Below are positions 5,914-34,419 of a DNA stretch of 64,000 nt, piece after piece (within the stretch, counting starts at the first letter, position 1; every line of letters begins with the position of its first letter). The translations under genes were made by a program, and so were the position numbers. The DNA lies in the NCBI GenBank assembly GCA_023014365.1, contig JAEBUN010000040.1, positions 186,001 through 250,000 of the forward strand. The letters are read 5' to 3'. This stretch comes from Lepiota brunneoincarnata. Lineage: Eukaryota; Basidiomycota; Agaricomycetes; Agaricales; Agaricaceae. Under the pieces are notes generated by a model. The model made no database searches. It had not been told where the DNA came from and saw only the letters and a program-made list of their open reading frames with translations.

Positions 5914-7640
5914 GGGGTTTTCAGTTGAATTTCACAAGACAAACACCAAAAGACTTGGACACTGGCCTGCCTTTCACCTGCAAAGCAGAAAAAGGTTCAA
6001 GCAAAGACCATAAAGTCACCCAAAATGTCCTTCAAGAGCAGTCTCAGGAAGGTCAACCCCCCAAAACAGAGAACTACTTGCAATTCTAATTGTCCAGAAG
6101 GTTCTGAAGGCCTCATTGCCACTAGTACCTCTCAAAAGCGAAAAGATCCTACTAGTTCTATAGCTGTGAACACAGCAAGTGGTTCAGCAGTTGAAGTATC
6201 AAGAGAAGCCATACCACCAATCTCTACTGTGCCCAAAATTACTATAAGGCTTCCAGCCTCAGCTTGCAACATAGCACATATTCTGCACACCAAAAACTAG
6301 GATGGCCAGACTGTTCCTACACTAAGCTTAGCATTACCAAACCAAAACTTGTTTCATACAAACCCTCCTGGTGCCACTATGGTACCACAGATATCACAGT
6401 CAATTCCAACTGTACAGACAAACCAAACTACACTGTCTATGACAACTACAGCTAGAAAAATGGGACATGAGCATATGCCAATTTCCTTTAGCAATAATGC
6501 TCCCAGATGGGATGCATCAAAACCACAGACATGGAGAAATTATCTCTGGACACTGGAACATCTCTTCACAATAATGAAGATGGCAGATGATGCAGAAAGG
6601 ATAAACTGGGCAGTGTCATATATGGACCAGGATATCCATGAAGAGTGGATGAGTTTTGCAGAGTTTCTAGCAGGAAGCTGGACAGGCTTCATAGAGAGAT
6701 TAAAGAAAGAGTATCCTGAGACTGTGGCAGCTGAACAGGGCTCAGTGCAACAATTGAGGGAACTCTGCACAGAGAGTAGAGGCATTGCAATGAATGAGGA
6801 GCATAAAGTCTTGGACTTCACAAGGTGCCTTCATTCTCGAAGTGGAGAAGTGCCTGAAGTTGCCAGTGGTAGTCTTGAACTGAGAGCTAGTCAAGTTATT
6901 TACGAGCATACTGGATTTGGTGTTCCAGGATGTACTCAATGCAAGATTAGCAATCACTGGAGCATGTAGAACCACAAGCGATGGGTCAGCACTGACTGCG
7001 AAGGATTTATGCAAAGGGGACCCCTATGATTGGAGGATCATCATGGATAAAGCCATCAAAATTTCGATTGGCAAAACACTTATGTGATTCCCTCCATCAG
7101 GATTCAAGACTGGTGAACTCAGCATTGATGAGCCACCCACCTGCGACACCTGGAACAGGGACTTATGACCCTGTAGTAAAGCAAGAGCTGCAAAGCTTAA
7201 AGCAGAAAATTCAGGATGAAGTCTCGCAGATGGCAGGTGGCCTTGCTGAGCTTAAGGACCTCATGAATATACAGGGGCATACTTTAAAATCATACTTAGA
7301 GAGTTTGGCGAAGGATGGACATAACCATGCCAGCTATAATCACATGCAGAGGAACACTGGAAGTGGGCCAGCAGGGTCACTTTCTGATTGCAAGTGTTTC
7401 TACTGCTGGTTATTAGGGCATAGCTGGTTATTCTGCCTGGACATGGAGGTGGATAAACAAGCCAGCCAAATTAGAGTTGAAGGGAACAAAATATATATGG
7501 GAGACAGCTCGAGTATCCCTCAAGGAGAAGGGCTTATTAAAGAGAAAGTGGTGAAGTACTATGTAACAAAGGGACAACTCTTTGTTCAGATACCAGAACT
7601 GCCAGAGGTTGAGCCTGAGTTACCGCAAGTGCCAGTGCAC
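5914..7640 (+). pseudogene. Element C gag
   Basis: Gag of the large Ty3 family. A basic N-terminal part (MSFKSSLRKVNPPKQRT from 6025) leads through a Ser/Thr/Pro region to the capsid domain at about 6460-6970. The capsid contains the conserved NNAPRWDASKPQTWRNYLW and EWMSFAEFLAGSW blocks. A canonical zinc knuckle CFYCWLLGHSWLFC (CX2CX4HX4C) is at 7395-7436. Compared with element A, a TAG at 6298 replaces CAG, and the frame changes near 6000 and 6830-7030. Not translatable as one protein, but domain order is intact. Confidence 0.85.
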
Positions 7641-10568: not shown

Positions 10569-12236
10569 ACACACAGGGTACTGAGGACCAGGGAATAACT
10601 GTCTTCAAAACTGAAGAGGATGATGAAGATACAGTACAATGCCTGGCTGGGAAGAAATATAAACCAGTCACCTTAAAAGTGAGGCCAGTGTTGGGTGACT
10701 TACCAGAGAAATTCAGGATAAAACAAGAAATAAAAGGGGACCTGCTGGCAGAAATACCTAAGCTTAGCATGCATCCTCCAGAATTTGCCCCTTTTGAGTA
10801 TGAGCTGGATCAAGCTCAGGAAGAGTATTTGGATGAACAACAGGCTAAGCTTAAGGTTATAGAAGACCCAGTGTACCCAGAACATCAGCAACAAGTACTA
10901 AGCTTAATGACAGGATGTCAGGCTAGTGCCAGATTTCGAAGAGGAAGAGGCAACCGAATTAGAGGAAGTGTATGATGAATTGCATAGGACAGATATGGCA
11001 TGAATACAAGATGAAAGGATACCCAAAGTCAGGGAATACCTGAAAACAGGGGCAGTAGTGTAGCCAAAGGCTTGGATGAGCTGGGTCTGTGTAAGCTTAA
11101 ACATATGGTGGAGCATTTCTTCTTAGATGTAGAGGGGAGACTGTATAGGATGAGTCCTAGCAGTCAGCATCAGCTAGTAGTAGATAAGGAGCAGTGTATG
11201 TATATGTTGTGAGCCAGCCACAACTTCCTAGGACACAGAGGAATATACACAATCACTAAGCTTATAACGCAGAGGTTCTGGTGGCCGGAAATTGAAGGAG
11301 ACATAGCTTGGTATGTGCAATCGTGCCATCTATGCCTAGCAATGGCAAAAGGTGATCATCAAGATGCTACCAATAGTAACAGCCCACACCATCAATCTTC
11401 CAAGTACTACATGTGGACACACTACATATGATACCAAGTTCTAATGGGTGTAGTTACATTGTGCATGGAAGGTGTGGACTGCCATCCTGGATGGAGGCAA
11501 AAGCTTTGAGAAAAGAGAATGCTAGTTCAATTGCACAGTGGTTATTTGAAGATATCATTTGCCGATGGGGCTATATAGTGAAGATTATCATGGACAATGG
11601 TTCTCCATTTAAGAAAGCTGTTCGATGGCTGGAAGAGAAATATGGGATAAAGGGAGTAACAATATCTCCTTACAATTCCAAAGCAAATGGGATTATTGAG
11701 AGACCCCACTGGGATGTGCAACAAATGTTGTACAAAGCTACAGATGGAGACATCAAAAAGTGGAATTGGCACCTACCACATGTTATGTGGGCAGATCAGA
11801 TAACCATTAGGAAAGGAATGGGATGTTCCCCACACTTCTTGGTAACTGGAGCGCACCTGACACTACCTCTGGATGTCAAAGAGGCCACTTGGCTAGTACA
11901 ACTACTGAATAAGTACTTAACCATGGCCAAGTTGATAGGATATTGAGCTCATGCTTTGGCAAAGCATGTTTGACATGTTGAGGAGATGCATCAGCATGTT
12001 TCAGACACTAAGCTTAGCAGGGCTTGGGAGATGGAATGACAAGCAGTGTGTAAGATAAGGGATTATCACTTTGGCCTGGGAGATTTAGTATTAGTGAGAA
12101 ATATGGCTATAGAGAGCTCAGCAGACAGGAAGGTGAAACCCTAGGTATCTAGGACCCATGGTGGTCATATCTAGATCAAAGGGAGGATCTTATATCCTGG
12201 CAGAGTTGGATGGTTCTGTATGGCAGAATAAAGTGG
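10569..12236 (+). pseudogene. Element C pol remnant with RT/RNase H deleted, integrase retained
   Basis: After the solo LTR the protease-RT linker resumes (ITVFETEGDD region, then PKLSMHPPEFAP at about 10755-10790). It jumps directly to FEYELDQAQEEYLDEQ, which in element B lies beyond RNase H. About 1.7 kb encoding RT and RNase H is thus missing. Integrase follows: an H2C2 zinc module (HNFLGHRGIY ... CHLC, about 11220-11340) and the catalytic core 11405-11946. Core residues visible are Asp in VDTLHM, Asp in IIMDNGSPF and Glu in NGIIERPHWD. A GPY/F-like module ([17 protein letters not shown]) follows with a frameshift near 12145. The copy stops abruptly at AATAAAGTGG, next to a truncated LTR. 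Confidence 0.85.
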
Positions 12237-14521: not shown

Positions 14522-14732
14522 AGTTCCAAAACCTTTCCAATGCACTATAAATATTGTTTAATTCATTGACTTCCAAATATGGAATATTATGTAATAATTA
14601 CTGGATCAATTAGTAGATAGGATATAGGGGTATATATATTTAAAATATGAGGTCTCTAGCTTTAGTATATCTAGAGCTATTCAAGGAATAGTTGAGACCT
14701 GGAGAACATTGGAAATGTTTTGGCAGCTACTG
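14522..14732 (-). repeat. Right terminal inverted repeat of the mariner element
   Basis: Inverse of 13123-13334, including the inner and outer copies of the putative binding motif. Begins AGTTCCAAAACCTTTCC and ends GGCAGCTACTG. Confidence 0.9.
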
Positions 14733-14983
14733 TATACTCAATAGGCTATGTAGAGTCCTGAATCCCTCTGGTGAGCGTTCTGATAGCTTAAAAACTAAGC
14801 TTAGTGATAATGAACTGGTTTGAACACTTCTGAGGCTCAAATATCCTTAATTCAGTCAAACTGGCTACTATGGGACATAGTACCAATCTTCTATAGAGTT
14901 CTTTAATGATATAGCCAATGATTCTATGTAGAGAATTGTTCCAGAGTACAGAATTCATGTGTAGGCATGAAATCGGTGTATCA

Positions 14984-14997
14984 TCTCCCCCTAACCA
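14984..14997 (-). promoter_or_regulatory. Polypurine tract of element A
   Basis: TCTCCCCCTAACC reads GGTTAGGGGGAGA on the minus strand, directly abutting the 3' LTR start TGATACAC. A purine run in this place primes plus-strand DNA synthesis in LTR retrotransposons. Element B has the identical tract (20417-20429). It shows that the following antisense genes lie inside the element. Confidence 0.8.
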
Positions 14998-15314
14998 ATT
15001 GCTGACTGTCCTCAGTCATTGTCTCCTTCAGATTTGCAGTTTCTGAGTCTCTCTGATGCACTCTCTGTTCTAGAATGTTCACCAGCTTTGAGGGTAGTGT
15101 ACTTTCACTAAGCTTATTCCAAAATGATGTCATGTCACCAAGCTTAAATGTATAGATCAACTTCTTGTTGCTATAGCTTAAATTTTTATCTTGTTATTGG
15201 GCCTTTTTAAAAGTCCCAAGTTTGCATTTTTCTTTCTTTCATTTGTGCTCCCATCTCCTTTCTCACCTCTTATCTCCCTTCTATTACACTTCTGCTACTC
15301 ATTCATTGCCCCAA
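14998..15314 (+). other. Non-coding leader upstream of antisense gene 1 (element A)
   Basis: No convincing coding frame. It is closely similar to 20430-20744 in element B and holds TAAGCTTA-type motifs near 15111 and 15141. It probably carries the promoter and 5' untranslated region of the gene at 15315; no clear TATA box was seen. Confidence 0.5.
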
Positions 15315-17376
15315 ATGGACAGGAACACTCATAGCAGCAAGCACACCCAGTATGAAGAAGACTCTGACTCCTCCTCCAGTAAATAACAGTTGCTTTGCTG
15401 CTGTCTTTGTTTTCCTAACACAGTTTCCAGACTATGCAGGGCCAAGCACTGCCCCTCAGACTTCTCAGGATGCACCCTCTTCATCAATTGTGCAGCATAA
15501 GTCTCTTTTCTCTCAGATTTTCATTGTTCCTCATGGTTTTTCTCTGTGTTTAGGTCTTACCATTCACCTGCCAGTGCGTTGCACAACCTTCTGCCTCAAT
15601 GGAAACCACCAGCACCATATGCTAGGAGGGCTAGAGGAGGGTGAGTAGGGCAAGGAGCTTGTGGAAACTGCCAGATGGGTGTGGGTAGGACCCCTCCCCC
15701 ACTGTACTCTCCACCTCGTGGCCTAACCCCTCAACCTTTGCCTCCACTGTCTGTGCTAGCTCCATTGGCTGCCCCCGCTCCAAGACATGTCATCTCAATC
15801 ATGTCCTTATGCAATCCTATCAGCAAGCCCTCTGCCAGATTTACCACAGAGGTTGCATCGAGTATTCCTGTTGGCAGACCCTCTTCCAGATTGTCCAGAG
15901 AGATCTCATCAACAACTATGCTGTTGCCCCCTCTTTCCCAGTCTCTAGTGGCGCCTTGTGAGCCAGAATCACTGGTCCTCCCCCCACTGGCTACTGTGGG
16001 TACTCTGGGGCTCCCTGGGCCCTCAACACTCAGACCTAGTTCACCTGGTTCTCCCTCAGTGGCTTCTATGCATAAGCTTAGCCCCTACTCACTGTTTCTC
16101 ATCATTTGTCACTAACTATTTATCTCACAGCTTGCATTTCTGCTGCCCTCAAAGGTAAACGGTGAGCGAGGTCTTCTACTCTGCCTCCTCAACCTTTGTT
16201 TCTGGTGAGTTCAAACTTGCCATCACATTCTCCTGTCCCAGGGGTCTCCCAAGAAGACCTCTTCAAAATTTTTAACTGGTCCTCTACCCTGGCTGAGCGA
16301 AACATGTTGGCTTCTCCCAGGTGTCCTACACCATCGCCGCCTCACTTGGCTTGTGCTCCAGTCAAGTCTCCCCCAAGCCCCATGGAGATTTTACCTTCCC
16401 CAGATTTGGAGCTCCTTCTAGAGCCTTCACCCATTCTCCAGGAGCCAGCATTTGTTTTTCAAGACTTGTTTTTGGCCTCTTCAACTCCCATGCCCTCTCA
16501 CAGTCCTAGCCTAGTAGTTCCTGAGGTACCCAAGTCCTCACCTCCACAGGCCAGACCTTTGAAGTCATGTCAAAAATGCATCTTTTCTTCCAAGAAGAGC
16601 TCTAATACATGAATGAAGAAACACGTTCCCAAGGCACGTGTTCACTGCACTGAAGCTGAGATCATTTGGGAACATGGTTATAAGCATCCAGTCCTGATCT
16701 TCAGTGAAGATTTCTCCAAGCTGCTGACAGTCAGTCAGCTTTCCATAAGCTTATCCAATTTTTCTTTTATATTTCCCAATTAACAGCTGTTCTTTTGACT
16801 AGTACCTGCCACCCTTGTCATGGTGCCTGATATTTGCTACACACAAACTGGAATGTGAACCTTTGGGCTTGGGTAAGAAGTGTTGCAGCTGCGACCTCTA
16901 CAACTACCCTTGCATGTTTGCGGACCACCCACAAGTTTTGGCAGGCATCACAAATGCCCTGGTCACATCTGTCATGACCAGTGAATACCATAAGTGTCTT
17001 TTGGCATTTTATTCTCTTTTCTTATCCTCTTTATTTTCTAGATCTGGCTGCATTTGCTTGAGTCACATCCTCCAGCTTGGTCAGCTTGGAGGTGAACTGA
17101 GTAGCATACGAGGCATCTGCATTTCATCATCAACAGGTTGTTTATCAATTTGTCCAGGAGATGCAGGCCACTTGGACCGCAATGGAAGGTAATGACACAG
17201 CATTTGTTGAAATGGGAATGGCCAACTTTCTTGAGGACATCCAGGCCTTTTTCAACTTTGCTGATCGCTTCCCTGGGGTCCTGACATATGAGGAATTTGA
17301 GGAACTCAAGTCTCTCCTCTTTCTTGCCTTTCCAATGACTCAAGACCCTGAGTCCATCTTGGAGGACTTGAACTGA
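15315..17376 (+). pseudogene. Antisense cargo gene 1 of element A (Pro/Ser-rich protein with Cys module)
   Basis: Gene on the strand opposite to the gag-pol of its element. Start ATG 15315 (MDRNTHSSKH) is shared with the B copy at 20745. Short introns are visible: one between about 15380 and 15426, and one ending in TAG at about 17042. The long middle part is Pro/Ser-rich and basic. Near 16815-16935 is a Cys cluster (KLECEPLGLGKKCCSCDLYNYPC). Two cysteines of the B version are lost here. The C-terminal exon reads ALVTSVMTSEY, then after an intron a conserved acidic tail with FADRFPGV, ending in LEDLN at 17376. Several frames are broken. No known family recognised; the Cys spacing only suggests metal binding. 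Confidence 0.65.
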
Positions 17377-18021
17377 TGCCTTTTTTATCTTTTATCTCTT
17401 GAATGTAAAATGGATATACATTCAATATCATTATCTTATTTCTTGTCCCTTTTCTTGAGCTAAGCTAAACTGTTTCTGACTTTCTTGTCATCTCCTAAAG
17501 CTAAGCTAAAGACCTCCTGGGAAACTCCTAAGCTAGTTTAGGTTGCCAGTCACTTATATACTCCTTATATGTTTCTCTGATATTTCTGCAATGTCTATTG
17601 ACACCTCAATGCGCCATGATCTGCAACATGTAGTGACCCAGTCATCTGTTCCAGTTTACTTACAAGCCTGAACCAGTGTGTATGCTCATATTCAAAATTG
17701 TGCATATTGAAGCACTACTTGGGGCCCATCTCCCCCTAGCCAAATTGAAATCGGTGCCCTCACTGTTCCATCAGAATCCCTGTGCACACTGATAACCACG
17801 AGACCCTGGCAACATGTTACCTAATAAGGCAACTGTGGTTCAGCTAGTCTGTCAAAGGCTGGCTACTCAAGATAACAGGTTTCCTAGGCATCTTAGGTCA
17901 TAAGCTTAGGGTGGAGGGTGCTTTTCATCCACTTGCTATGATTCATCATCACTGCCAACAGCTTTTTCTTGTAAAAGTGAGGGAGTGACATCTCATTCTA
18001 GCAGACACTCTTTGCAAGAAA
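17377..18021 (+). other. Spacer between the two antisense genes (element A)
   Basis: 645 bp without a supported gene. It matches 22799-23412 of element B over its length, including AATGTAAAATG...TATACATTCAA just after the stop and CATAAGCTTAGGGTGGAGGG near 17900. It likely holds the 3' end of gene 1 and the promoter of gene 2. Confidence 0.5.
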
Positions 18022-19204
18022 ATGGCTTCTTCTATCCCTAATCTTCAAGTCAAGCTTGACAATCTCATCAGCAACGCCAAAGGTTGTCTTCAGTGCCTGC
18101 AAAATAGTCAAGTCACTCATCCCCTCATTGAAAATGCTCTCCTTGCATTTGACACTCCTGGGGTATGTTTATTTATTCCTACATCTCCCTCCTCATTGCT
18201 CAATTGCTTTCCAGTCTGCTTATATTGAAGCATTATCGGAGGACACTGAGGCTATCAAGCTTTATGTCAACCAGGACTATGTCTTCTGTATTTGCAAGCT
18301 CTACAAAATTTACCAAAACAACTACCATTTGTCTTATGAGATGCTTGCAATCTATAAGGTGTTCTCTGAATGCTGTAGCTGCATTAATCACATCTGCTCT
18401 GAGGAATCCCACAAAACCAGGACTGAAGAGGCTCAGAACCTGTCATCCATGACTGGTTCTTCTTCCTCTAATGCTAGCAAAGGCTCTGCTGTCCCCAAAC
18501 ACATAAGCTTAGCATTCTTTTGGCTCCAATTGCCTTCTCATGTATAAGCTTAGCCTTGCAAGGGTTGCAAGGCCCCTGTCTCTGCTGCTGTTGTGGTAGA
18601 CACCAATACCGAGCCTGTGGAGAGTATGAATAGTGCCTCCAACTCCTGAGCAACTGGTGCTAACATGGCAATCTAGCTGCTTCTCAACCTATTACATTGG
18701 CTGTGATTATTGCTTGCCTCCAGGATATGATGGTCAATGAGGAGGTTTCTCAAGCTATCATCAAAGAGGTTCATGTAGTTTTGCCTTATCACAAGCATCA
18801 TTTGTCTGCGTCCAACATGGTGTGCCAACTCTACTCCCCCTAACCACTGATTCTGACTTCCTCCCTCATTAGGAGACCATCAAAAAGTCCTCATTGTCTA
18901 AAGGCACTGTCTTCTTCCCTATTGTCAAGTTCCCAATATGAACACTAAACACTGCTGTTATGCCTAGGCTGAACAGGTTCTAGCCAAAGCCAACATCAAT
19001 ACCGCCAAGTGTGCCTGGACTGAGTCTGCTTCCGATGAGCACACCTTTGCAGGCTTATCTGGTGGGCCTTGTCTCACTTTTATTTGCTAAGCTTAACAGT
19101 TCTGACACTTATCCCAGCCAGCTTATTTGCTCCAGGAACTCCAAAACCTCCTGTCTCACTCTTGCGATGAGTACAAGTCTGAATCTTGCAGTGACAACGC
19201 TTGG
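18022..19204 (+). pseudogene. Antisense cargo gene 2 of element A, 5' part (split by element B)
   Basis: Starts MASSIPNLQVKLDNLISNAK. Exon 1 ends at DTPG, followed by an intron of about 52 bp beginning GTATGT and ending TAG. Exon 2 begins SAYIEALSEDTEAIKLYVNQ and carries several cysteines (SECCSCINHICSEE) and a Ser-rich stretch. The B copy has the same intron at the same place. Further downstream the frame is interrupted, and TATAAGCTTAG supplies a stop near 18546. The gene is cut at 19205-19208 by insertion of element B; its last exon is at 33256-33413. Function unknown. Confidence 0.65.
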
Positions 19205-19208
19205 TCGG

Positions 19209-20416
19209 TGAAAAGGTAGAAATGTTTGTGGATTTTTAATATAGATAGAGGGCTTGTTTTCACTAAGCTTAGCCAAAATTCGATAAGCTTAAGCTAATAC
19301 AAGTGATATGAGATAGATAATGAACAGTTTCGTCTTTTAGGGTGTTCTGGGGGTGCGTTCTGACAGCAAAATTCAAGAGAGTAGTGTTTTAGAGGTTAAC
19401 GAACAGCCGTTGAAGTTATATTAGCCATATGGTGCAATAATGAAAGGACAATCCCTGCCAATTCAAAGCATGGGGTCTCTGGTCTCTGGTCTCTGGTCTC
19501 TAAACTTGGTTCTCTGTCTCTGTCTCTGTCTCTGGGTTGGTCGACAACTGAATCTTGATCACAGCTCACAGACTTGCATGTGTAAGTGGGGGTGAGACCT
19601 CTTGCTTCTCCACAAACAAGTGCAACTGTATTTATATTGTTTAGATACATACGAGAGATAGTAAATATGAAATAGAAAACAATAAGCTTAATTGTTATAG
19701 GCACTGTAGAACATTTTGGAAGGTTCAGCAGCATTTCTACCTTGCCCTAGGTTATGGGTTTTTCTCTGATTGACAAATGGCAATCCAGCCAGACGTGCTC
19801 TATGCTCGTCTGCATTATTCTGCATCCACATGAGCATGTTTAAGCCTCTGGATCAATTATGATCAGAATGTATAGCATATGGACAATCCCTTGATCCGTT
19901 GTAATTAATCTCAGTTAGGCAGTATGCTGAGGTGCCGGGACCCACAAAGCACTCGTTAATTATGAGTCTTTGATATTTCTAGGTTTTTGGGCATCAGGTG
20001 TTGCCTCCTGGATGTTGGATGTTCCGTTCTGTGGTCTGGTCATCATTATTGGGCTTGCTATAGGCATAATACATCTGAGACAGCCACTAGGTACATTCTT
20101 TTATGTTCAAATGCATTCAGTTTCATCAGAAAACTGCTTGTAAGGTCCCTTGATGCGACCGGAGTATACTTGATAGGCTATGTAGGGTCCTGAATCCCTC
20201 CGGAGAGCGTTCTGATAGCTTGGTTCACTAAGCTTAGTGATAATGAGCTGGTTTGAACACTTTTGAGGCTCAAATATCCTTATTTCTGTTGAACTGGCTA
20301 CTACAGGACATAGTCCCAATCCTCTATAGAGTTTTTTAATGATATAGCCAATGATTCTATGTAGAGAATTATTCCGGAGTATGGAATTCATGTATAGGCG
20401 TGAAATTGGCATATCA
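19209..20416 (-). repeat. 3' LTR of element B
   Basis: 1208 bp, TGAAAAGG...ATATCA. It lacks segments present in other copies, notably around 19545 where about 60 bp between the AGAGAC tract and CTTGATCA are missing. It is followed at once by the polypurine tract. Confidence 0.9.
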
Positions 20417-20430
20417 TCTCCCCCTAACCA
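20417..20430 (-). promoter_or_regulatory. Polypurine tract of element B
   Basis: Same GGTTAGGGGGAGA (minus strand) as at 14984, directly beside the 3' LTR. Confidence 0.8.
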
Positions 20431-20744
20431 ATTGCTGACTGTCCTCAGTCATTTTCTCCTTCAAATTCACAGTATCTGAGTCTCTTCTGACATGCTCTAT
20501 GTTCTAGAACTTTCACCAGCTTTGAGGGTAGCATACTTTCGCTAAGCTTATCCCAAAATGATGTCATGTCACTGAGTTTAAATGTATAGATCAACTTCTT
20601 GTTGCTATAGCTTAAATTTTTATCTTGTTATTGGGTCTTTTTTAAAAGTCCCAAGGTCTCGTTTCAGCTCTTTCATTCTCCCTCTCACTTCTCACTTGTC
20701 TATCCTGCTCTCATTTCACTCTTCAATGCCCACTTCTATCAGCA

Positions 20745-22798
20745 ATGGACAGAAACATGCACAGCAGCAAACATGCCCAATATGAAGCAGACACGGACTC
20801 CTCCTCTGGTGAGTAAATTTTGCTTTACAGTTATCTTTGGTTTCCTCACACTGTTCTCAGACTACACTGGGCCAAGAAATGCCTCACAGGTCCTTCAAAA
20901 TGTGTCCTCTCCCTCAATTGTGCAACATAAGTCGCATTTTCTCGTTTCCTTTCATCCTTACTCAGGTTTTTCTCTGGTTTAGGTCTCACTATTCACCTGC
21001 CGGTGCATCGCGACCACCTGCCTCTACTGCCAGCACCAGCACTGCATGCTCAATGGGCTCGAGGAGGAAGGGTGGGATGAGGAGCCCATGGAAATCATCA
21101 GGTAGGTGTGGAAAGGACCCCTCCCCCACCATACTCTCTGCCCTGCGACCCAACCCCTCAACCATTGCCTCCCTTGTTTGCACCGATTCTGTTGGCTGCC
21201 CCTACTCCCCAACGTGTAATCTCCATTGCGTCCCTATGTAATCTGATCAACAGGCCCTCTGCCAGATATACTACAGAGGTCGCATCGGATACCCCTGTTG
21301 GTGGGTCCTCTTCTGGATTATCCAGAGAGGCCTTGTCAACCACTATGCTGCTGCCCCCTCTTGCTATCTCATTGTGCACCCTGGATGGGGAAGACTTGCT
21401 GGTGCTCCCTCCCCTGGGTATTGCATCAGGTTCAGAGGTGCCAGGCCCTTCAACAACCCGCCCCTCCTCCCCCGTACTTTCTTCAGCTACTTCAACGTGT
21501 AAGCTTAGTCTTTTTCACGGTATATTTGTCCTTTCTGCTGACTTCTGCTTTAGCGCATATCCCAGCTGCCCTTAAAGGCAAACAGAAGGCAAAATCATCA
21601 ACACCGCCCCCCACGCCTCTGTTCTTGGCAAATTCAAACTCACCCTCACACTCATTGGGTCCTGAGGTCTCCCAAGAAGACCTCCTCAAAATCTTTAGCT
21701 GGTCCTCTACTCTAGATGGACAACACGCATTGTCTTTGCCCAGGTGCCCAACACCATCACCACCCCACTTTGCTGGCACTCCAGTCGAGTCTTCCCCAAG
21801 GGCCGTGGAGATTTTGCCTTCTCCAGATTTGGAGCTCCTTCTGGAGCCTTTGCCTGCCCCTCAAGAACCGACTTTTGTTTTTCAAGACATGTTCTTAGCT
21901 TCTCCAACCCCTGTTCCATCCTGTGTGCCGAGCCTGGTGATCCCAGACATATCCCAGTTCTTGCCTCCTCAGGCCAGTCCTTCAGGGTTGCGTCACCAGC
22001 ACGTGAACCTGCCAAAGAAAAGCTCCAACATGCACCCAAAGAAATACACTCTCTGAGCTTGTGTCCAATGTTCTGAAGCCAAAATAATCTGGGATCATGG
22101 ATACCGGCACCCAGTCCTGCTCTTTTGTGAGGACTTCTCTAGGCTGCTGGCAGCTAGCCAGCTTTTGGTATGTTCTCCAAGTTCTCTCATGTTTCCTTAC
22201 TGATGGTTATGCACCCACCCTAGTATGTGCCACCTTGGTCTTGGTGCCTTACTTGTGCCGCTTGTAAGTTGGAGTGCAAGCCTCTGGGCAAGGGTAAGAA
22301 GTGTTGCAGCTGTGACCTTTATAACTACCCATGCACTTTCACCGATCACCCATGTGTCTCTGCTGGTATTGCAAATGCCCTGGTCATGTCCATGATGACC
22401 AGTCAATATTGTACATATCTTTTTGCTCTTTATTTTTCACATTCTTATTCACTTGGCTAATAGATCTGGCCATCTTCGCACAGATCACCTCCTCCAGCTT
22501 GGTCAGCCTGGAGGCAAACCAAGTCACTTATGAGGCGTTGGCATTCCACCACCGTTGCGTCATATATCAATTTGTCCAGGAAATGTAAGCCACTTGGACT
22601 GTATTGGAGGGTAATGATGTGGCGTTCATTGAGATGGGAATGGCTGACTCCCTCGAAGATGTTCAGGTGTTCTTCGAGTTTGCTGACAACTTTCCAGGGG
22701 TCCCAACATATGAGAAATTCGAGGAGCTCAAGTCGCTTCTCTTCCTTGCTTTCCCAATGACTCAGGATCCCAAGGCCATCTTGGAGGACTTGAACTGA
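20745..22798 (+). pseudogene. Antisense cargo gene 1 of element B (Pro/Ser-rich protein with Cys module)
   Basis: Better copy of the gene at 15315. Start MDRNMHSSKHAQYEADTD, intron from GTGAGTAAAT near 20811 to about 20858, and further short introns. The middle is Pro/Ser-rich (PPPYSLPCDPTPQPLPPLF near 21115). At about 22245-22340 a Cys module reads WCLTCAACKLECKPLGKG then KKCCSCDLYNYPC: CX2CX2CX4C followed by CCX1CX7C. After an intron ending near 22463 the last exon carries LVSLEANQVTYEALAFHHRC and an acidic tail ending in LEDLN. One TAA near 22588 replaces a CAG present in element A. The arrangement resembles zinc-binding nuclear proteins, but no family was recognised. Confidence 0.7.
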
Positions 22799-23412
22799 TG
22801 TCTTTTTTATCTTTTATTTCTTGAATGTAAAATGTATATACATTCAACATCATTATCTTGTTTCTTGTCTCCTACTGAGTTAAGCTTAAGACCATCTGGA
22901 ATATCCCAAGCTAAGCTAAGGTTTCCAGCTGCCTATACTTTCATCATGTATTTCTCTGTTTTTCCTGTTTATTGAGACATCAACGCGAGGTGATCCACAA
23001 CACGCAGTGACCCGTTCATCAGTTCTGGTTTACTTACAAGCCCAAACCCAAACCAGCTTGTACATGGTGTTTGTGAAAAAGCTTACACCCACTGCTATTG
23101 AAGTGCTACTTGGGGCCCATCTCCCCCTAGCCAAATTGAAATTGGTGCCCTCACCATTCCATCAGAATCCCTGTGTACACTGATAACTGCGACACCCTGC
23201 CAACATGTTACCTAATAAGGCAACTGTGGTTCAGCTAGTCTGTCGAAGGCTGGCTACTCAAGATTACAGGTTTCCTAGGCCTCTCAGGTCATAAGCTTAG
23301 GGTGGAGGGTGCTTTTCATCCACTCATTATGATTTGTCATCACTGCCAACAGCCTTTTCTTATAAAAGCAAGGGAGCGACATCTCATTCTAGCAGACACT
23401 CTTCATAAGAAA
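22799..23412 (+). other. Spacer between the two antisense genes (element B)
   Basis: 614 bp, homologous to 17377-18021, no supported gene. A conserved block (CTACTTGGGGCCCATCTCCC near 23106) is nearly identical in both copies. Confidence 0.5.
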
Positions 23413-24760
23413 ATGGCTTCTTCAATCCCTCATCTCCAGGTTGAGCTTGATGATCTCATCAGCAACGCCAAAGGTTGTCTTCAGTGCCTGCAAAATGGTC
23501 AAGTCACTCATCCCCTCATCGAAAAGGCTCTCCTTGCATTTGACACTCCTGGGGTATGTCTATTCGTCCCCATGTCTCTTTCATCACTGTTCAATTGCTT
23601 TCTAGTCTGCTTATATTGAAGCATTATCGGAGGACACTGAGGCTATCAAGCTTCATGTCAACCAGGACTACGTCTTCTGTATTCACAAGCTCTATGAAAT
23701 TTACCAAAACAACTACCATTCGTCTTATGAGATGCCCACAATCTATAAGGCACTCTCTGAATGCTGTAGCCACATTAATCATGTCTGCTCTGAGGAATCC
23801 CACAAAAGCAGGACTGAAGAGGCTCAGAACCCATTGTCCACGACTGGCTCTACTTCCTCCAACATTGCTGAAGGCTCTGCTGTCCCCAAATGCATAAGCT
23901 TAGCATTCTTTTGGCTCCAATCGTCTTCTCATGTATAAGCTTAGCCTTGCAAGGGTTGCAAGGCCCCTGTCTCTGCTGTTGTTGTGGTAGACACTGATAC
24001 CGAGCCTGCAGAGAGTATGATCAGTGCCTCCAACTCCTGAGCAACCAGTGCTGACACGGTAATCTAGCTGCTTCTCAACCTATTACATTGGCTGAGATCA
24101 TCACTCACCTTCAGGACATGATGGTCGATGAGGAGGTCTCTCAAGCTATCGTTGAAGAGGTTCATGTAGTTTCGCCTTATCGCAAGCATTGTTTGTCTAC
24201 CTCTGATGTGGTGTGCCAGCTCTACTCCCCCTAACCACTGATTCTGACTTCATCCTTCACTAGGAGGCTGTCAAAAAGTCCTCCTCATCTAAAGGCACTG
24301 TCCGTCTTCTTCCCTATTGTCAAGTTCCCAATATGAACACTAAACACTGCTGTTATGCCCAGGCTGAACAGGTTCTAGCCAAAGCCAACACCAATACTGC
24401 CAAGCATGCCTGTACCGAGTTTACTTCTGGCGAGCACACCTTTGCAGGTTTATCTAGTGGGCATTTTCTCGCTTTCATTCGCTAAGCTTAACAATTCTGA
24501 CACTTATCCTGGCCAGCTTGCTTGCTCCAGGAACTCCAAAACCTCCTGTCTCACTCTCACAACAAGTATGAGTCCAAATCTCACAGTGACAACACTTGGT
24601 CGGTCAAATGCGGCCCAATTCACTCAGCCAGGACTTCATCAAGGCTATTCCCTTGCTTGAAGCCAACCTAAAGAGGTTCCAATTCCTCATTCAAGAGTGC
24701 ATCCATCTCAAAAGCCTTTTGCACAACCTCTCCGACTTGGACAAGTCCTCCCCCACTTAA
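23413..24760 (+). pseudogene. Antisense cargo gene 2 of element B
   Basis: Starts MASSIPHLQVELDDLISNAK at 23413. Exon 1 ends at DTPG, intron about 23554-23605 (GTATGT...CTAG), and exon 2 starts SAYIEALSEDTEAIK. It is rich in Ser, Glu and Cys. The last part reads SQDFIKAIPLLEANLKRFQF and ends HNLSDLDKSSPT at 24760, 76 bp from the end of integrase on the other strand. The middle (23940-24600) has stops, so either more introns exist or the copy is broken. Amphipathic C-terminal helix likely. No homologue recognised. Confidence 0.65.
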
Positions 24761-24836
24761 GCTTAACACTTTTACAGTCCCTAGGATAGTTTTCCTTTGA
24801 TAAGTAGATAGTTCTGTCCACAATATCAGGTTTTTC

Positions 24837-25790
24837 CTATCCTCCCAACTCTTCTGGCTCCCATCTGTCACTAGGCTCATCTTCAGTAGTCTCCTCCAGG
24901 GTCTTCAGTCCCTCAGGTGACAGGTCTATCAACTCTTGTAACTCCGGCGGCAATGGCATATGTTTTCTGGCTAAGTAGGAAATTCCTCTGAAGGCTGCCA
25001 CTTTATTCTGCCATACAGAACTGTCCAATTCTGCCAGGACATAAGATCCTCCCTTTGATCTAGATATGACCACCATGGGTCCTAGATACCTGGGTTTCAT
25101 CTTCCTGTCTGCTGAGCTCTCTATAGCTGTATTTCTCACTAAGACTAAATCTCCTGGGCCAAAGCAATAATCCCTTATCTTATGCACTGCTTGTCTTTCC
25201 ATTTCCCAAGCCTTGCTAAGCCTATTGTCTGAAACATGCTGACACATCTCCTCAACATGCCAAACATGTTTTGCCAAAGCCTGAGCTTGATATCCTATCA
25301 ACTTGGCCATGGTCAAGTACTTATTCGGTAGCTGTACTAGCCAAGTGGCCTCTTTGCCATCCAGAGGTAGCGTTGGGTGCGCTCCAGTTACCAAAAAGTA
25401 TGGGGAACACCCCATCCCTTTTCTAATGGTTATCCAATCTCCCCACATAACGTGCGGTAGGTGCCAATACCACTTTTTGACATCTCCATCTGTAGCTTTG
25501 TACAACATTTGTCACACATCCCAATGGGGTCTCTCAATAATCCTGTTCGCTTTGGAATTGTAAGGAGATATCATTACTCCCTTTATCCCATATTTTTCTT
25601 CTAGCCATTGAACAGCTTTCTTAAATGGAGAACCATTGTCCATGACAATCTTCACTATACAGCCCCATTGGCAAATGATATCTTTGAATAACCACTGCAC
25701 GATTGAACTAGTGTTCTCTTTTCTCAATGCTTTTGCCTCCATCCAGGATGACAGTCCACACCTTCCATGCACAATGTAACTACACCAATT
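24837..25790 (-). pseudogene. Element B integrase core and C-terminal module
   Basis: Integrase part of Pol, minus strand. The core runs from the solo LTR at 25796 down to about 25290. It shows Asp in IVMDNGSPF and Glu in NRIIERPHWD, then the [19 protein letters not shown] block typical of Ty3 integrases. The C-terminal region (about 25190-24837) contains [19 protein letters not shown] and the GPY/F-like [20 protein letters not shown]. It ends in a Glu-rich tail with a stop at 24837. No chromodomain is visible. A TGA near 25510 interrupts the frame. Confidence 0.9.
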
Positions 25791-25795
25791 AGAAC

Positions 25796-26137
25796 TGTAG
25801 GAATTTTACAAGCCAGTGGACAGTTGACATGATGTTGGCTGGACTCTCTAGTTAGTCTCTATTTGGACATGGACCCTACTTGCGCAAATCGCGATCTCAC
25901 AATTTATTTACTATTTTATTTCTATTCCCATTCAGTAGAACTTCGGTTACCTGGCATACAGACACATAGCTAGGCTTTCCTCAGTACTCGTGTGTATAAC
26001 GAGTGACTGAGGTGAGCATCCATGTTTATATCCACTATACTTATGTTAAGCTTATGTTCATAGCTTTATATTCTTACAGGTTAGCTAATATACAGTACTC
26101 ATGCGTATAACAAGTGACTGAGCTTTATATTCTTACA
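25796..26137. mobile_element. Solo LTR, 342 bp (TGTAGGAATT...TTCTTACA)
   Basis: Insertion inside the integrase of element B with a perfect 5-bp duplication AGAAC (25791-25795, 26138-26142) and TG...CA ends. It contains an internal direct repeat: CAGTACTCGTGTGTATAACG near 25990 and a diverged copy near 26093, each followed by a GTGACTGAG stretch. A 17-bp repeat AGCTTTATATTCTTACA also occurs twice. No coding frame. Family differs from the 1.3-kb LTR. Confidence 0.85.
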
Positions 26138-26142
26138 AGAAC

Positions 26143-26597
26143 TTGGTGTCATATGTAGCATGTCCACATGTAGCACTTGGAATATCGATGGCGTGGGCGT
26201 TACTATTGGCAGCGTCTTGATGATCACCTTTTGCCATTGCTGGCATAGATGGCACAATTGCACATACTAAGCTATGTCTCCTTCAACTTCCAGCCACCAG
26301 AACCTCTGCATTATAAGCTTAGTGGTTGCATATATTCCTCTGTGTCCTAGGAAGTTGTGGCTGGCTTGCAACATATACATACGCTGCTCCTTATCCACTA
26401 CTAGCTGATGCTGACTGCTAGGACTTGTCCTATACAGTCTCCCATTGTTATCCAAGAAGAAATGCTCTACCATATGTTTAAGCTTACGCCGGTCTGGCTC
26501 ATCCAAGCCTTCAGCTGCACTACTGCCCCCTGTTTTCAGGAATTCCCTGACTTTGGGTATTCTTTCATCTTGTATTCATGCTGTATCTGTCCTACGC
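26143..26597 (-). pseudogene. Element B integrase zinc module and upstream linker
   Basis: Continuation of Pol on the minus strand. The H2C2 module (SHNFLGHRGIY ... ending near 26260) and the preceding LKHMVEHFFLDNNGRLYRTS segment are seen at 26506-26260. The linker stops at the next insertion (26598). The equivalent in element A is 35583-36131. Confidence 0.85.
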
Positions 26598-28466
26598 TGT
26601 TGCACCGCAAAATCATTTCATTTGTGAAATCACTAGCTAATAAAGTAACTAACTCTCCGATACCGAATAATATTAGTATATGGCCATGGTCAGACACTGG
26701 GGTGTGAGAGATTAGAATACTATCTAAAATATGTGAAGGCAGACATCTCAGAAACAGAACCAGAACACCCAGACAAGTAAAAATGTGCTGTTAACTAACT
26801 TATTAGTGATAAGGCTATGGAAGAATGACTCTGGTATGAATGTACCTGAGCATTGTATCTGATACTGTGTTAAACTAAGATATTAGTTAAGATACTCATG
26901 ACTACACAAAAGACCCATTTTTTCGCCTCTGCCCTAGAAAGTGGACGAGTTGTAATGCTTATGACCTTCAGATGGTACCTAGCCATAGTAACAGGTTCTG
27001 GAAGTGAATCTTGACAAAAGAATGTAGGGATTAGCTAATGCCCTGACAAGAATGTCCCCTTTGAATGGTTCAGATGATATTGAAACCTAAGGGATTGAAT
27101 GGGGGTATCCTAGAGGGCACTCAGGGAAGGATGCCCCCTCATAGAAACAAAAAGAGATCAGAAATGATGAACTAGAAAATGAAGATTGATAAGAATAGAA
27201 TAAGCTAATTAATTCTAGTGTTAGTCTACTGCCTGAAGACTATGGAAGTGGACTTTAGAACATTAGGGTTGAAAACTCAGGTGTGGAGAAGTCCAAGAAT
27301 AAAATAAAAACCAATAGATAAATGTTAGCGAGGAAACTCACTAACCTGGCTGGCTGTGATATAAATAGCCAGGCACCTAGGGAGCAAGTCCCTGAGAGCA
27401 AATTGATGTCGCTGATATTGGAACTCCTAGAATGATGCTCCTAAATGATGAGGAGACAATAAAATGATGAAGCTGAAGGCTTGTTTCAGGTATACCCATA
27501 AGTTAATTGTATATTGTTATAAAAACTTGTCTGTAAATTACATGGGAGGCAAGAAACCGCTTGCCTATTTCCCCCCCTGATTGTATGGTCGATTAGGATA
27601 GGAATATAAAGCAATTTTATGCAATTTTCTTCAGTCATAGACCACCAGAGACTTAAAGAGTTATACTCTTTAAAACCAGACCCTTTGAAATGATTGAGAT
27701 ATTGACAGATCCTTCTGCTTGACTCAAGAACTGAATACGAGTTGCTACGACTCTTCTGTTCTTAAGTAGAAAGTTCACTAACTTCCATTTCTTTGGGTTC
27801 CTCTTAGAGGCCATGCCTCAGAAGTATACCATTGAATTGTAGAGCTGTCTAATTGAGAAGCAAACATAGTATGCTAGGGCCCATTGAAAACACTGTCCAC
27901 TAGGTCTATCTAGTTTAAAGATACTTACTGCAGGAGCTCACTAGAAGCCTGTCTCGCTGAGTAGTATAAAGTTTTATTGCATTGTTCAGAAGCTGTAGTG
28001 TGCTAGGGCCCATTAGATATGTAATGCTGTCTGCTAGGCCTACTAGCTTAAAGACACTTACTGCAGGAGCTTGTCAAAAGCCTGTCTTGCTGGGTAGTGT
28101 AAATTTATAGTATTGTCAAGAGAAAAGGATGTAGTATGCTAGGGCCCATTAGAACACATTGTCTGCTAGGTCTACAGAGGTTCATTGATTGCCAAAGCTT
28201 GCATTTTGCCTGACTTATCAAATCGTGAAGATATTAGTTAACATATTATATAGTAACAACCATCAAAGTTCCTGTTGTATTCAGATAGGACAACTGTCTG
28301 TCTAGTTGGAGACTAAGAGAATAACTTACCAAGACCCTAAAAACACTAGAATTGAATATATTTCTGGAGATCTGTGGTAACCTCTCCCCTATGAACTTAT
28401 AAAGTTGGAATTAGCAAACCTGTTAATGAACTTCATTTTCGATCTTGTAAAATAATCCGCATTTCA
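26598..28466 (+). mobile_element. Long solo LTR-like insertion, 1869 bp, no coding capacity
   Basis: Inserted in the linker of element B. Ends are TGTTGCACC and GCATTTCA, flanked by ACGC (26594-26597) and ATGC (28467-28470), a probable 4-bp duplication. Six-frame reading shows no frame longer than about 60 codons. A TATAAATAG box at about 27360 reads on the plus strand, which suggests orientation. Three tandem repeats of about 130 bp lie near the right end. A long LTR of an unrelated retrotransposon is the simplest reading; a non-autonomous element is possible. Confidence 0.7.
27868..28165 (+). repeat. Tandem repeat of about 130 bp, 2.3 units
   Basis: Units begin TAGTATGCTAGGGCCCATT at about 27868, 27996 and 28133. 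Each of the first two continues through TACTGCAGGAGCT and GCCTGTCT. Spacing is about 128 and 136 bp. The third unit is incomplete. Confidence 0.8.
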
Positions 28467-28470
28467 ATGC

Positions 28471-30120
28471 GATTCATCATATGCTTCCTCTATCTTGGTC
28501 AACTTTTCCTCTTCAAAATCTGGCACTAGCCTGACATCCATCATTAAGCTTAGTACTTATCGGTGGTTTTCTGGGCATGCTGGGTCTTCTATAACCCTAA
28601 GCTTAGCCTGTTGTTCATCCAAGTACTCTTCCCAAGCTTGATCCAGCTCATACTCAAAATCATACACATCACATGCCAGACCCTGGTTGAACCCAGAGCG
28701 ACTGTTGATCTCATCACAGAAAGCCTCCAAGGGTAGAGGATCTGCAGCTCCTGGATCTTCTTTAATTAACTCAAACTCTTCTCCCTCATCCTCAGATCCA
28801 TTGTCGAAGCGACAGGCTGTCTCATCACCAGGATAGTAGTATCTCCTAGACAGTCCATCCAGCCCAAATGTCTTCCCTTCTTTGTATACTAGCATGAAGT
28901 GGAATGACCTAATGAAGTCCACCCAATGGTTTACAGTAGCATTCGGGAGTTTTCCTGGGTTGTTTAACATCCCAAAGAGAATCTTTGCATCTGTTTCCAC
29001 CACTAGGTTTCTCGATCCCCACAATAAATATTTCTCTTGCTCCAGCACCATTCTCAAGCCGCATAGCTCTTGCTTGGGCTGAGAGTATCTCTGCTGTCTC
29101 TCATCCAGTAATATCGACCCAAACTTCACATAATGTATAAGCTTAGCATCTTTTCCATCTCTCTGGTATATCTAGTACCCCACCGCCCTCCATGAGGTAT
29201 CCACAGCTACTACTATGGGTTGTTTACTCAGAAATTTGGGGTTCCTGGTCAGGAAACAGCACTGAATTGCATCCTTCAGCTTCTGCTGTGCTTTCTGTTT
29301 GTTTTCTCCCCATTCAAACTCTTGTCCCTTCTTAAGCTTTTCATATAGGGGTGTAGCAATGGCTATGAACTTCAGGATATGATTCCTGCAGTGCATAGCT
29401 GTTCCTAGGAAACCCCTTAGCTCAGAAACATTCTTGCAATCCCCCCATCTTAATATCTTCCCAATGGTGTCTGTGGCAGGCAACCATCCTTTATATGAGC
29501 ATTCAAAACCCACTATGGTGATTTCATCAGTGTAGATAGTCATCTTGGGCCCAGAGAAGGTTCTCCCTACATATTTCATCCTCTGTAGAATCCTATTGAC
29601 CATCTGCATGTGTTCCCATACAAATCGTCGGATCCCTGGGTTCTCTTTCAGTGTTTCTTCAGTGCCATTGGGCAGCTCATATCTAGTTTTTGGTCCTCTG
29701 ATAGGTACATCATCTATGTACAGCATTGTGTATTCTGGTATCTCACTGGCTAGGATTGCTGTTACATCCTCATGAAATATAGGCACTGAGTTGGTCCATC
29801 CCATGGGTAATGTCACTAAGCGTAGCACTCCAAAAGGTGTTTGGAATGTTGTTAAGTCCTGAGACAACTCAGCTAACAATCACTCATCATACCCAACATA
29901 CAGGTCCAGAATGCCTCCGCAAGCTCTGCCTGCAAAGTGCATTGCCAAATCTTCCGTTGCTGGTGGCAGTCCTGAATGCACTATCATCACTCTGTTCAGC
30001 GGTTCCAAGCTGTGTACCAGTCTCAAGCTTTTTCCATCTTTCTTCACCACACAGAACCATCTGGATCTATAGGATGAGTTCGACAGCTCATATACACCAG
30101 TGCTAATCTTTCTCTTTATA
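28471..30120 (-). pseudogene. Element B reverse transcriptase and RNase H
   Basis: Minus-strand Pol core. RT lies about 30110-29400. The second catalytic block reads YIDDVPIRGPKTRY near 29722-29680, preceded by LVTLPMGWTNSVPIFHED. RT thumb and connection follow, with RGFLGTAMHCRNHILKF near 29415. RNase H has VVAVDTSWRAVGY near 29210, Glu in QELCGLRM near 29070, and VVETDAKILFGMLNN near 28995. It is followed by the FEYELDQAWEEYLDEQQ linker. A stop near 29172 (TAG) and a few others break it. Compared with element A this is the more complete copy. Confidence 0.92.
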
Positions 30121-31852
30121 ATGGCACAGACTTCATCATATATTGCTGGTGGAATTGGAATGGGCTTCTCAACCCACGGAGTATGTTCTACTGTTGGTAT
30201 CTCAATCAGCAGAAAGAAATCTTCTCTAAAACATGCCCTCTCCTCATCTGTCCATGCGAATGCTTTCTCTTAAAGCATCATGACCTGGTGCATCAGCTTT
30301 CTTTCTTCTGGCCACAAGAAATCCCCTGCATGGGCTTCATCCAGCTTAAGCTTACGCTCCTCAGTATATCTGCCTGTTGGGGCAAATTCTGGAGGATGCA
30401 TGCTAAGCTTAGGCATTTCTGCCAGTGGGTCCCCTTTTATTTCTCATTTTATCCTGAATCTCTCCAGTAAATCACCCAACACTGGCCTCACTTTTAAGGC
30501 AACTGGTTTATATTTCTTCCCAGCCAGGCATTGTACCATATCTTCATCATCTCCTTCAGTTTCAAAGACAGTTATCCCCTGACCCTCAGTATCCTGCACA
30601 TTGGCGATATGCCCTAGACACAATAACGCCATTGCTTTATCTTCCTGTGGACAGCCCTCATTGCATATGACTTGGTCAATGAACATCAGCTGTAGCTCAG
30701 CCTCTGAGAAGCTTCCTTTTGTTAAGCTTAGTGTTTGTGCAATGACAGGACCCTTCTCATCATCATAGTCTATTATACAAGCCACCTCTCCTTGTCCCTT
30801 AGTCAACTCATTGAGGTTTCTTGAAAATTTTGACTGTTTTCTCTAAGCTTAGGAGGATTGCACTCTCCTCAAGCATAAGTTGGTAACACAGCCCTTTCTC
30901 TGGTATTTGGGTCCATAATAACCAAGGTTTGCTTGCCACTGGCACTATTCCTGACTTCACTAGCCATCATTACATCAAATGGTCATCCCAGGAGTACTCG
31001 ATATGCGGGATTACGGATAATGTGGACTTGCAAATAGATTGTGACTCCCCTGCAGGTAAAGCCTACATTCTTTGCCAATCCACAAGTCTTTTCAACCTGC
31101 CCATTTGCACTCTGCAAATTAATCGTAGTGTCTGGATCCCAAGAGACTTGACATGCAATCACCACTTCCTGACTCATGGATATGATCTGTGACCCACTAT
31201 CTAGCAAGGCCTCTTCCTGCTGAACCCATTTATCAGAGTTGGCACTACTCTCAACAGTTCACATTCTTTAGCAATAAACACTTGCCGTCCCCTGTCTCTT
31301 CTGGGAAGCAACTCCAAGTACTGCATGATTGGATCCTGAGCTACCCAGGCTTGGGTTGCTGAGCCTTCTCGGAGCACTGTATCATACTTCTGAGGGCCAT
31401 CTGCTAGCTCTGTTATCATGACCTGTACTGGCCCACTATTAATCTCTATATCTTCTGTATCATTGTCCCAGGGCCCAACTCCTGCTATTAAGCTTTGGTT
31501 CATGGGTACCCGTTTTCTCATAATTTGCTCTCTATAAGTGTTCCTGTATATTGGTGACAATGCCAAGAGTTCTCCATGTGATACTGAGGCTTCTCGCTTC
31601 AATACCCTGCTGAGTACTTCCTCCACATGGACATTCCTCTCTATAGGGGCCTGGTGCTTATATGCAGGCTCCTTCTTGGATGGTTCCATCCTTCTGACAG
31701 GCAGCGGTGGTATCTCAATGACCAGGTGCAGTGGTTTCACATTTCTATATGGTAAATCCCCTGCTGCTGTACATGTTGGTTTCTCCGTCGTCTGCCCTAT
31801 TTCCTCATTTTCTGATTCTTCTGATGTCTCGGAATCCGATGCGTCCTCAGGA
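30121..31852 (-). pseudogene. Element B protease and linkers; capsid part of gag deleted
   Basis: From right to left on the minus strand: the acidic linker with SPIYRNTYREQIMRKRVP near 31550, protease with LLDSGSQIISMSQE at about 31207-31160, then the LSLTKGSFSEAELQLMF and ITVFETEGDDEDMVQCLAGK blocks toward RT. The polyprotein ends abruptly at about 31852 (TCCTCAGGAGAG), where element A continues into gag. The join is directly to the middle of an LTR, so capsid, zinc knuckle, primer site and part of the 5' LTR were deleted together. Confidence 0.85.
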
Positions 31853-32143
31853 GAGTAAATATGAAATAGAAAACAATAAGCTTAATTGTTACAGGCACTG
31901 TAGAACATTTTGGAAGGTTCAGCAGCATTTCTACCTTGCCCTGGGTTATGGGCTTTTCTCTGATTGACAAATGGCAATCCAGCCAGACATGCTCCATGCT
32001 CGTCTGTATTATTCTGCATCCACACAAGTGTGTTTAAGCCTCCAGATCAATTATGATCGGAATGTATAGTGTATGGACAATCCCTTGATCTGTTGTAATT
32101 AATCTCAGTTAAGCAGTATGCCGAGGTGCCAGGACCCACAAAG

Positions 32144-32454: not shown

Positions 32455-32804
32455 CAAAGCACTTGTTAATTATGAGTCTTTGATATTTCTAGGTTTTTGG
32501 GCATCGGGTGTTGCCTCCCGGATGTTGGACATTCCGTTCCATGGTCTGGTCATCATTATTGGGCTTGCTATAGGTGTAATACACCTGAGACAGCTGCTAG
32601 GTACATTCTTTTATGTTCAAACACATTTGGTTTCACCAGAAAACTGCTCGTAAGGTCCCTTGATGTGACCAGAGTATACTCAATAGGCTATGTAGAGTCC
32701 TGAATCCCTCCAGAGAGCATTCTGATAGCTTAGTTCACTAAGCTTAGTGATAATGAGCTGGTTTGAACACTTTTGAGGCTCGAATATCCTTATTTTGGTC
32801 AAAC

Positions 32805-34411: not shown

Positions 34412-34419
34412 CACCTTCT

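Follow-up and report, generated by a model that had tools for sequence, protein, structure and literature searches.

Can a retrotransposon supply its own transcription factor from a gene on the opposite strand, where introns are not open to splicing in the genomic RNA? The question is raised by a window of 64,000 nucleotides (C37:186001-250000 of a 95-contig, 55.6 Mb assembly) in which two copies of one long terminal repeat (LTR) retrotransposon, elements A and B, each possess a stretch of about 4.3 kb (14984-19204 in A, 20417-24760 in B) with two genes, here gene 1 and gene 2, on the + strand, opposite to the pol and integrase sequences of the same elements on the - strand. The first-pass annotation of the window had placed such a pair between the integrase and the polypurine tract/3' LTR, and both copies confirm this position. 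The two genes are very probably conserved, spliced antisense accessory genes of the element; the whole statement, that they are such genes and regulate the element, is held with moderate confidence. The question can now be tested because the two genes are conserved together, with ten introns, strong purifying selection, a recognisable DNA-binding motif in one of them and young copies of the element.

Organization and class of the element

The family comprises more than 100 copies in the assembly, partial or whole, and its LTR of about 1.3 kb is likewise multicopy (647 candidates in a first look at the genome). A young complete copy (C6:766904-780845), with LTRs 97.5% identical over 1300 aligned bases, has the order 5' LTR, gag, protease, reverse transcriptase, RNase H, integrase, gene 2 (antisense), gene 1 (antisense), polypurine tract and 3' LTR. 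In the stretches that contain it (L056 and L057, C6:766700-783700), an LTR, gene 1 and gene 2 are followed on the opposite strand by a pol open reading frame (ORF) of 1261 amino acids and a gag-like ORF of 670 amino acids, and then by the second LTR. The pol ORF matches the Pfam models Integrase_H2C2 (57.1 bits) and RT_RNaseH (46 bits), with no match to RVT_1 or rve at E 0.1 and a protease score of 17.3 bits, under the cut-off of 28.2; YIDD and D/D/E were read by eye in the pol alignment, as was CX2CX4HX4C in the gag-like ORF. Paired LTRs with TG...CA ends are present, in the C6 copy and at the LTR ends of the window. A candidate primer binding site, TGGAGCCCACCGCGAGG, lies 2 nucleotides past the 5' LTR (L057 2820-2845), and a 16-mer of it occurs at least 80 times in the genome, 40 per strand. 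No clear target-site duplication was found for the C6 copy. By this gene order and these motifs the element belongs to the Ty3/gypsy-type LTR retrotransposons, and it has a fixed two-gene module opposed to gag-pol. Its closest named pol match in the protein search is polyprotein P0001 of Agaricus bisporus var. burnettii (Agabi119p4_2520), with 66% identity across 98% of the pol sequence used as query and compared by pol only, and no relative of the integrase or pol was found among viral contigs and prokaryote genome contigs; the pol relatives indicate a fungal host.

The antisense genes are present in most scored copies. In whole-genome protein searches the last exon of gene 1 had 144 matches and exon 2 of gene 2 had 150, the stronger of which (122 and 127, respectively) were used for pairing; for 109 of the 122 gene-1 exon matches, gene 2 follows on the same strand at a distance of no more than 2.5 kb. 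Among the best 40 of 167 integrase candidates, which were the ones scored, 31 have gene 2 adjacent on the opposite strand at 1007-1014 bp. The other nine include four with gene 2 at 8-10 kb on the same strand, three (on C7, C25 and C69) for which the weaker matches include fragments of gene 2 at 1011-1015 bp, one (C30:34401) with gene 1 only, and one (C20:450498) with neither gene among the gene-1 and gene-2 exon matches. Read from the other side, 29 of the best 30 matches to the window's gene 2 (L009-L038) continue straight into integrase-side sequence; in L031 this sequence extends for only 270 bp before an LTR, and in L033 gene 2 is joined to pol sequence from farther off.

Gene structure and selection

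After predicted splicing, gene 1 is open through six exons in copy L039 (584 amino acids) and gene 2 through six exons in L056 (359 amino acids), each gene with five predicted introns of 50-61 bp. Introns 1, 3, 4 and 5 of gene 2 have GT and AG in all 32 copies compared, and intron 2 has AG in 32 of 32 with GT in 27 and AT in five, the 32 copies being related and their counts accordingly not independent tests. Identity of the copies to L056 is 0.906-0.943 in the exons of gene 2 and 0.856-0.930 in its introns. Both genes are thus predicted to be spliced.

A different gypsy element is inserted directly in the last exon of the well-kept gene 2 of L039 (L039 5738-10000, C15:105737 onward), and the end of its integrase ORF is chromodomain-like as read by eye.

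The ratio of non-synonymous to synonymous substitution rates (dN/dS) was determined against five copies (L027, L035, L026, L012 and L014) with L039 as the reference for gene 1 (374 codons from the available parts of exons 3 to 6) and gene 2 (254 codons), and with L056 as the reference for the integrase (422 codons). It ranges from 0.13 to 0.20 in gene 1, from 0.10 to 0.25 in gene 2 and from 0.08 to 0.16 in the integrase; when codons touching CpG are left out, the ranges are 0.10-0.15, 0.07-0.18 and 0.05-0.14, respectively. Judged from these ratios, which supply the check between copies that had been proposed for the pair, both proteins are under purifying selection.

Gene 1 has diverged more than its neighbours. 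Its synonymous rate (dS) in the same five copies is 0.55-0.78, versus 0.17-0.25 for gene 2 and the integrase, and nucleotide identity between L056 and element B is lowest there (77.0%, versus 89.5% in the untranslated region, 89.1% in gene 2 and 92.6-93.5% in the integrase). The high dS suggests an exchange of the gene-1 stretch between subfamilies, and it is a tentative proposal, compatible with the reading of the pair as regulators of the element, that recombination has moved gene 1 from one subfamily to another and that gene 1 determines which LTRs a given subfamily is able to activate. A locally raised mutation rate could also account for the dS.

Sister families

Seven gene-2 matches in the genome are only 30-34% identical, and five of them were read (those on C50 and C17 were left out). 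In family 2, the integrase is 72% identical to that of the first family on C36 (L060, L054) and 69% identical on C74 (L062), with gene 2 on the opposite strand, and a third sequence on C25 (L061) is 95% identical to those of C36 and C74, its integrase lying outside the fetched stretch. In family 3, represented by two sequences 98% alike on C57 and C47 (L052, L053), the integrase end is 73% identical and opposite to gene 2, and a gene-1-like ORF and the first gene-2 intron were recognised in L052 by eye only.

Both genes of the C36 copy are open after predicted splicing (420 and 331 amino acids), and the homologous proteins of family 2 are 28-33% identical to those of family 1. Gene 2 aligns end to end between the families (28% identity, E 3e-32); its five introns have the phases 0,0,0,0,1 in family 2 and 0,0,1,0,1 in family 1. 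Gene 1 aligns over a putative zinc finger and the region that follows it (E 2e-4 in a one-against-one test), and the finger exon stands between phase 0 and phase 1 introns in both families. The same antisense arrangement is thus present in two diverged families of the genome; homology of both genes is supported by alignment in family 2, and in the other gene 1 was recognised by eye. This makes the two genes look like long-standing components of the element, not passing cargo.

Encoded proteins and free homologues of gene 1

The finger of gene 1, in the C-terminal third of the protein, has the spacing CX2CX6CX8CX2CX6C in the better-kept copies, where it reads CPSCAARKLECEPLGKGKKCRSCDLYNYPC or CTTC..., with RKLxC at the third cysteine. 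The finger of family 2 has the spacing CX2CX7CX8CX2CX7C, and the six cysteines are invariant in four aligned sequences. The six-cysteine spacing of gene 1 fits the Zn2Cys6 consensus of fungal zinc cluster proteins. A different module, CX2CX2CX4C...CCXCX7C, had been described from the window and proves to be a decayed reading, in which CpG decay has turned arginine codons into cysteine codons. A profile comparison with PDB, listed to E 10, returned five sequences of heme activator protein, CYP1 and pyrimidine pathway regulator 1 (E 0.45-2.3), all of which we take to be Zn2Cys6 domains (HAP1/CYP1, PPR1). Basic stretches are present in both the gene-1 and the gene-2 proteins. The spacing, the PDB listing and the basic stretches together suggest nuclear regulators.

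Gene 2 had no useful match in Pfam or PDB. Protein searches outside the genome found nothing at E 0.001 for gene 2 (307 amino acids, without the end of its last exon; 2028 candidates) or for residues 390-552 of gene 1 (395 candidates); the same database holds Agaricus proteins, and pol gave 1544 matches among 7994 scored. Because a length filter of the database drops single-exon ORFs, the lack of outside homologues is weak evidence.

Within the genome, a homologue of gene 1 at C35:357842 (L055, C35:355000-361000, positions 1700-3172) is 60% identical in amino acids over the last exon and has a CpG observed/expected ratio of 0.85, with no LTR, pol or gene-2 match in the 22 kb read. A second free copy at C60:120807 (L058, C60:118500-123500) is 98.7% alike over 2.4 kb, with no gene-2, pol or LTR match in the 5 kb read. 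Both loci are near contig ends (about 24 kb away), diverged repeats surround the C35 copy, and in the free homologues the first 108 or so residues cannot be recognised. Either a domesticated descendant or a remnant may be present at these loci. No free homologue of gene 2 was recognised among the matches read.

Proposed function and alternative explanations

In the genomic RNA, antisense introns appear as CT...AC and are not spliced, and they therefore survive each retrotransposition. Both genes may be transcribed from promoters of their own, to which TATA-like boxes point, and spliced, and antisense expression from integrated copies would then yield the proteins independently of the genomic RNA. 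The gene-1 product would bind DNA in the nucleus in a Zn2Cys6-like manner and regulate transcription of the element itself, with gene 2 as a putative nuclear partner or cofactor. A near-palindrome of the everted CCG-N-CGG type, CCGATCATAATTGATCCGG, is found at about position 550 in all three LTRs of L056, L057 and L039. A fuller history can be offered only tentatively: a fungal gypsy lineage would carry a self-contained regulatory cassette of an antisense, spliced zinc-cluster factor and its partner that predates the family split, the factor gene being swapped between subfamilies to change LTR specificity and having at least once been left as a free host gene near a chromosome end.

Several results weigh against the reading of the pair as conserved genes that regulate their element. 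The gene-2 copies compared with L056 have 8 out-of-frame indels and 1 in-frame indel in exons and 44 in introns, the latter confined to introns 1 and 2 and probably representing few inherited events. Between L039 and L056, the dN/dS of gene 1 is 0.84 (from 20 changes) and gene 2 has seven replacement changes and no silent ones, and the window's copy B gives ratios of 0.23 for gene 1, 0.26 for gene 2 and 0.40 for the integrase. LTRs were not located in families 2 and 3, and a plain tblastn search with gene 1 found no match in either. The boxes that suggest promoters (TATAAAAG, some 50 bases ahead of the start codon of gene 2 in L056; CTATAAATG and CTATAAAACAG ahead of the family 2 and family 3 versions of that gene) were picked by eye with no chance control, and paired CCG/CGG sites show no clear excess in the LTRs (lowest p 0.025-0.03 among 20 tests). 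The PDB matches are individually not significant. The Pfam model Zn_clus (cut-off 21 bits) scores 13.6 with the whole gene-1 protein, 19.0 and 16.6 with the finger exons of two family-1 copies and 16.8 with that of a free copy, and it does not match the finger exon of family 2. It is outscored by zf-ChsH2 on the first 17 residues of the finger exon in L026 and L039 (22.8 and 23.3 bits, cut-off 23.2), a match that covers half of that model only and reaches the cut-off in one copy. For these last two reasons gene 1 is left outside the Zn2Cys6 family proper and is taken only to work in the manner of its members: it shares CX2CX6CX8CX2CX6C and RKLxC at the third cysteine with fungal Zn2Cys6 (GAL4/HAP1-type) factors, and differs from them in its score below the Pfam cut-off, in the location of its finger in the C-terminal third and in being borne by a retrotransposon.

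The first-pass annotation had left it between regulators and captured host genes, and the presence of the same pair in diverged element families favours regulators over a recent capture. An ancient capture survives as an unlikely rival, in which host genes were taken up once as antisense genomic DNA and kept as cargo that acts on the host, for example in silencing. The introns, retained as in genomic DNA, and the gene-1 homologues at C35 and C60 without element parts would fit such an origin. However, the gene pair sits in diverged families, element parts were shown to be absent at only two near-identical loci among the 122 gene-1 matches (the other 11 unpaired matches being unread), and the free gene resembles family 1 more closely (61%) than family 2 does (23%), a pattern that export from the element fits at least equally well.

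Improbable in comparison is the idea that the antisense transcripts matter and not the proteins, double-stranded RNA formed with the genomic RNA limiting copy number. Gene 2 and pol do converge, gene 2 ending at L056 5868 and the pol stop standing at 5945-5947, with about 76 bases between the stops, and such roles are discussed for other elements in the available part of PMC7264820. Yet low dN/dS, open frames and kept splice sites point to proteins that are translated. Next to no credence is left for chance ORFs within repeated DNA. Gene 2 is about 90% alike between copies, and shared frames could to that extent be inherited passively, but dN/dS of 0.10-0.25, gene-1 dS of up to 0.78, the keeping of exon frames and family 2 homologues at 28-33% identity already contradict this explanation.

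Comparison with known systems

An antisense, spliced gene for a DNA-binding regulator is known from an infectious retrovirus, HTLV-1, whose HBZ is a bZIP protein encoded by a single gene; the gene 1 product described here is zinc-cluster-like. Zhao et al. 2011 is said, by its title, to concern brtn, an antisense gene of a fungal element. Antisense genes have been reported in several LTR retrotransposon families, their function being called undetermined in the available part of PMC7264820. The nearest likeness among fungi is Boty-like/BcGypsy1 of Botrytis cinerea, a gypsy-type element with brtn as an extra antisense gene between pol and the 3' LTR; as far as the available parts of these sources go, one such gene is described there, compared with two in the present element (PMC7264820, PMC8365987). 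The plant elements Grande (gene23), RIRE2, Retand (TRP28) and PvRetro13 share a long region between pol and the 3' LTR with conserved antisense genes, for which nuclear or DNA-binding roles have been suggested, and differ in their plant hosts and protein families, according to the available parts of PMC7264820 and PMC11963269; the word 'intron' is absent from the main text of the latter. The reading proposed for the window, an LTR retrotransposon with two antisense, spliced genes that recall the antisense ORFs of Grande, RIRE2 and Retand, is supported by copy number, pairing of the genes, conserved splice sites, purifying selection and the sister families.

Antisense genes at the site between pol and the 3' LTR are therefore already known (Grande, Retand, Boty). 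Among the titles and abstract openings of the matches listed, there was no fungal LTR element with two spliced antisense genes and no element-borne zinc cluster. The suggestion that a fungal case may be undescribed stands in part: brtn of Boty is a fungal precedent with one gene, and what appears new, not having been seen among the matches listed, is the combination, in a fungal element, of two such genes with ten introns between them and a product that is zinc-cluster-like.

Elements A and B in the window

Whole-window CpG observed/expected is 0.33 (0.14 in A, 0.31 in B), a sign of strong CpG decay, versus 0.92-0.97 in well-kept copies elsewhere (0.97 in L056); CpG to TpG/CpA changes make up 73 of 150 gene-2 substitutions in B and 76 of 153 in A. 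Several splice donors are ATAAG in the window copies where young copies have GTAAG. Gene 1 has in-frame stops in the last exon in both A and B, and the last exon of B's gene 2 is one base short. The starts, ends and intron places that the two copies were said to share are indeed common to both, up to where A breaks.

A and B cease to be similar at about 19208/24608, and the sequence of A that is absent there picks up at 33252, which places element B (19209-33251) as an insertion in the last exon of A's gene 2, splitting that gene. The target-site copies of B, TCGG on the left (19205-19208) and TCAG on the right (33252-33255), differ by one base. TG/CA ends and a polypurine tract (TTAGGGGGAGA on the - strand, 20417-20427, beside the LTR start, with the same motif at 14984 for A) locate the 3' LTR of B, a member of the repeat family, at 19209-20416 on the - strand, beyond the start of gene 1; on the + strand it reads TGAAAAGG...GGCATATCA. 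Gene 1 of B (20745-22798, +), mapped from the open copy L039, has exons at 20745-20808, 20861-20926, 20983-21498, 21554-22167, 22224-22401 and 22464-22798, with the Zn2Cys6-like finger in exon 5. Gene 2 of B (23413-24760, +), mapped from the open copy L056, has exons at 23413-23553, 23606-23893, 23945-24014, 24068-24210, 24264-24456 and 24517-24760. On the - strand follow the integrase part of pol (24837-26452, located by tblastn with the 422-residue ORF of L035, with an extra stretch of about 340 bp near 25796-26138), the rest of pol with upstream coding remains (26701-31850, RNase H match at 28557-29129) and a truncated 5' LTR (31851-33251). The match of this LTR starts only at 31851, where it is joined to pol-side coding sequence, and B therefore lacks gag and the primer site as well as part of this LTR.

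Element A is represented by a 3' LTR fragment (14732-14983, -), a decayed gene 1 (15315-17376, +; exons 15315-15378, 15431-15496, 15554-16071, 16131-16744, 16803-16980 and 17042-17376), gene 2 up to the insertion of B (18022-19204, +; exons 18022-18162, 18215-18502, 18554-18623, 18677-18819, 18873-19061 and part of exon 6), the 3' remainder of gene 2 past it (33252-33413, +), and integrase pieces within 33499-35915 on the - strand (34416-33499 and 35915-35589).

A search of the window for tRNA genes found none. The 5' LTR of B is broken by an inverted pair of repeats of about 300 bp (32143-32454 and 32805-33125) that flank an LTR segment, and related sequence is found at 46793-47114. A third integrase copy (11126-12235, +) is cut off at 12235/12236, at the very point where another match to the family LTR starts, and this junction is probably another nested insertion.

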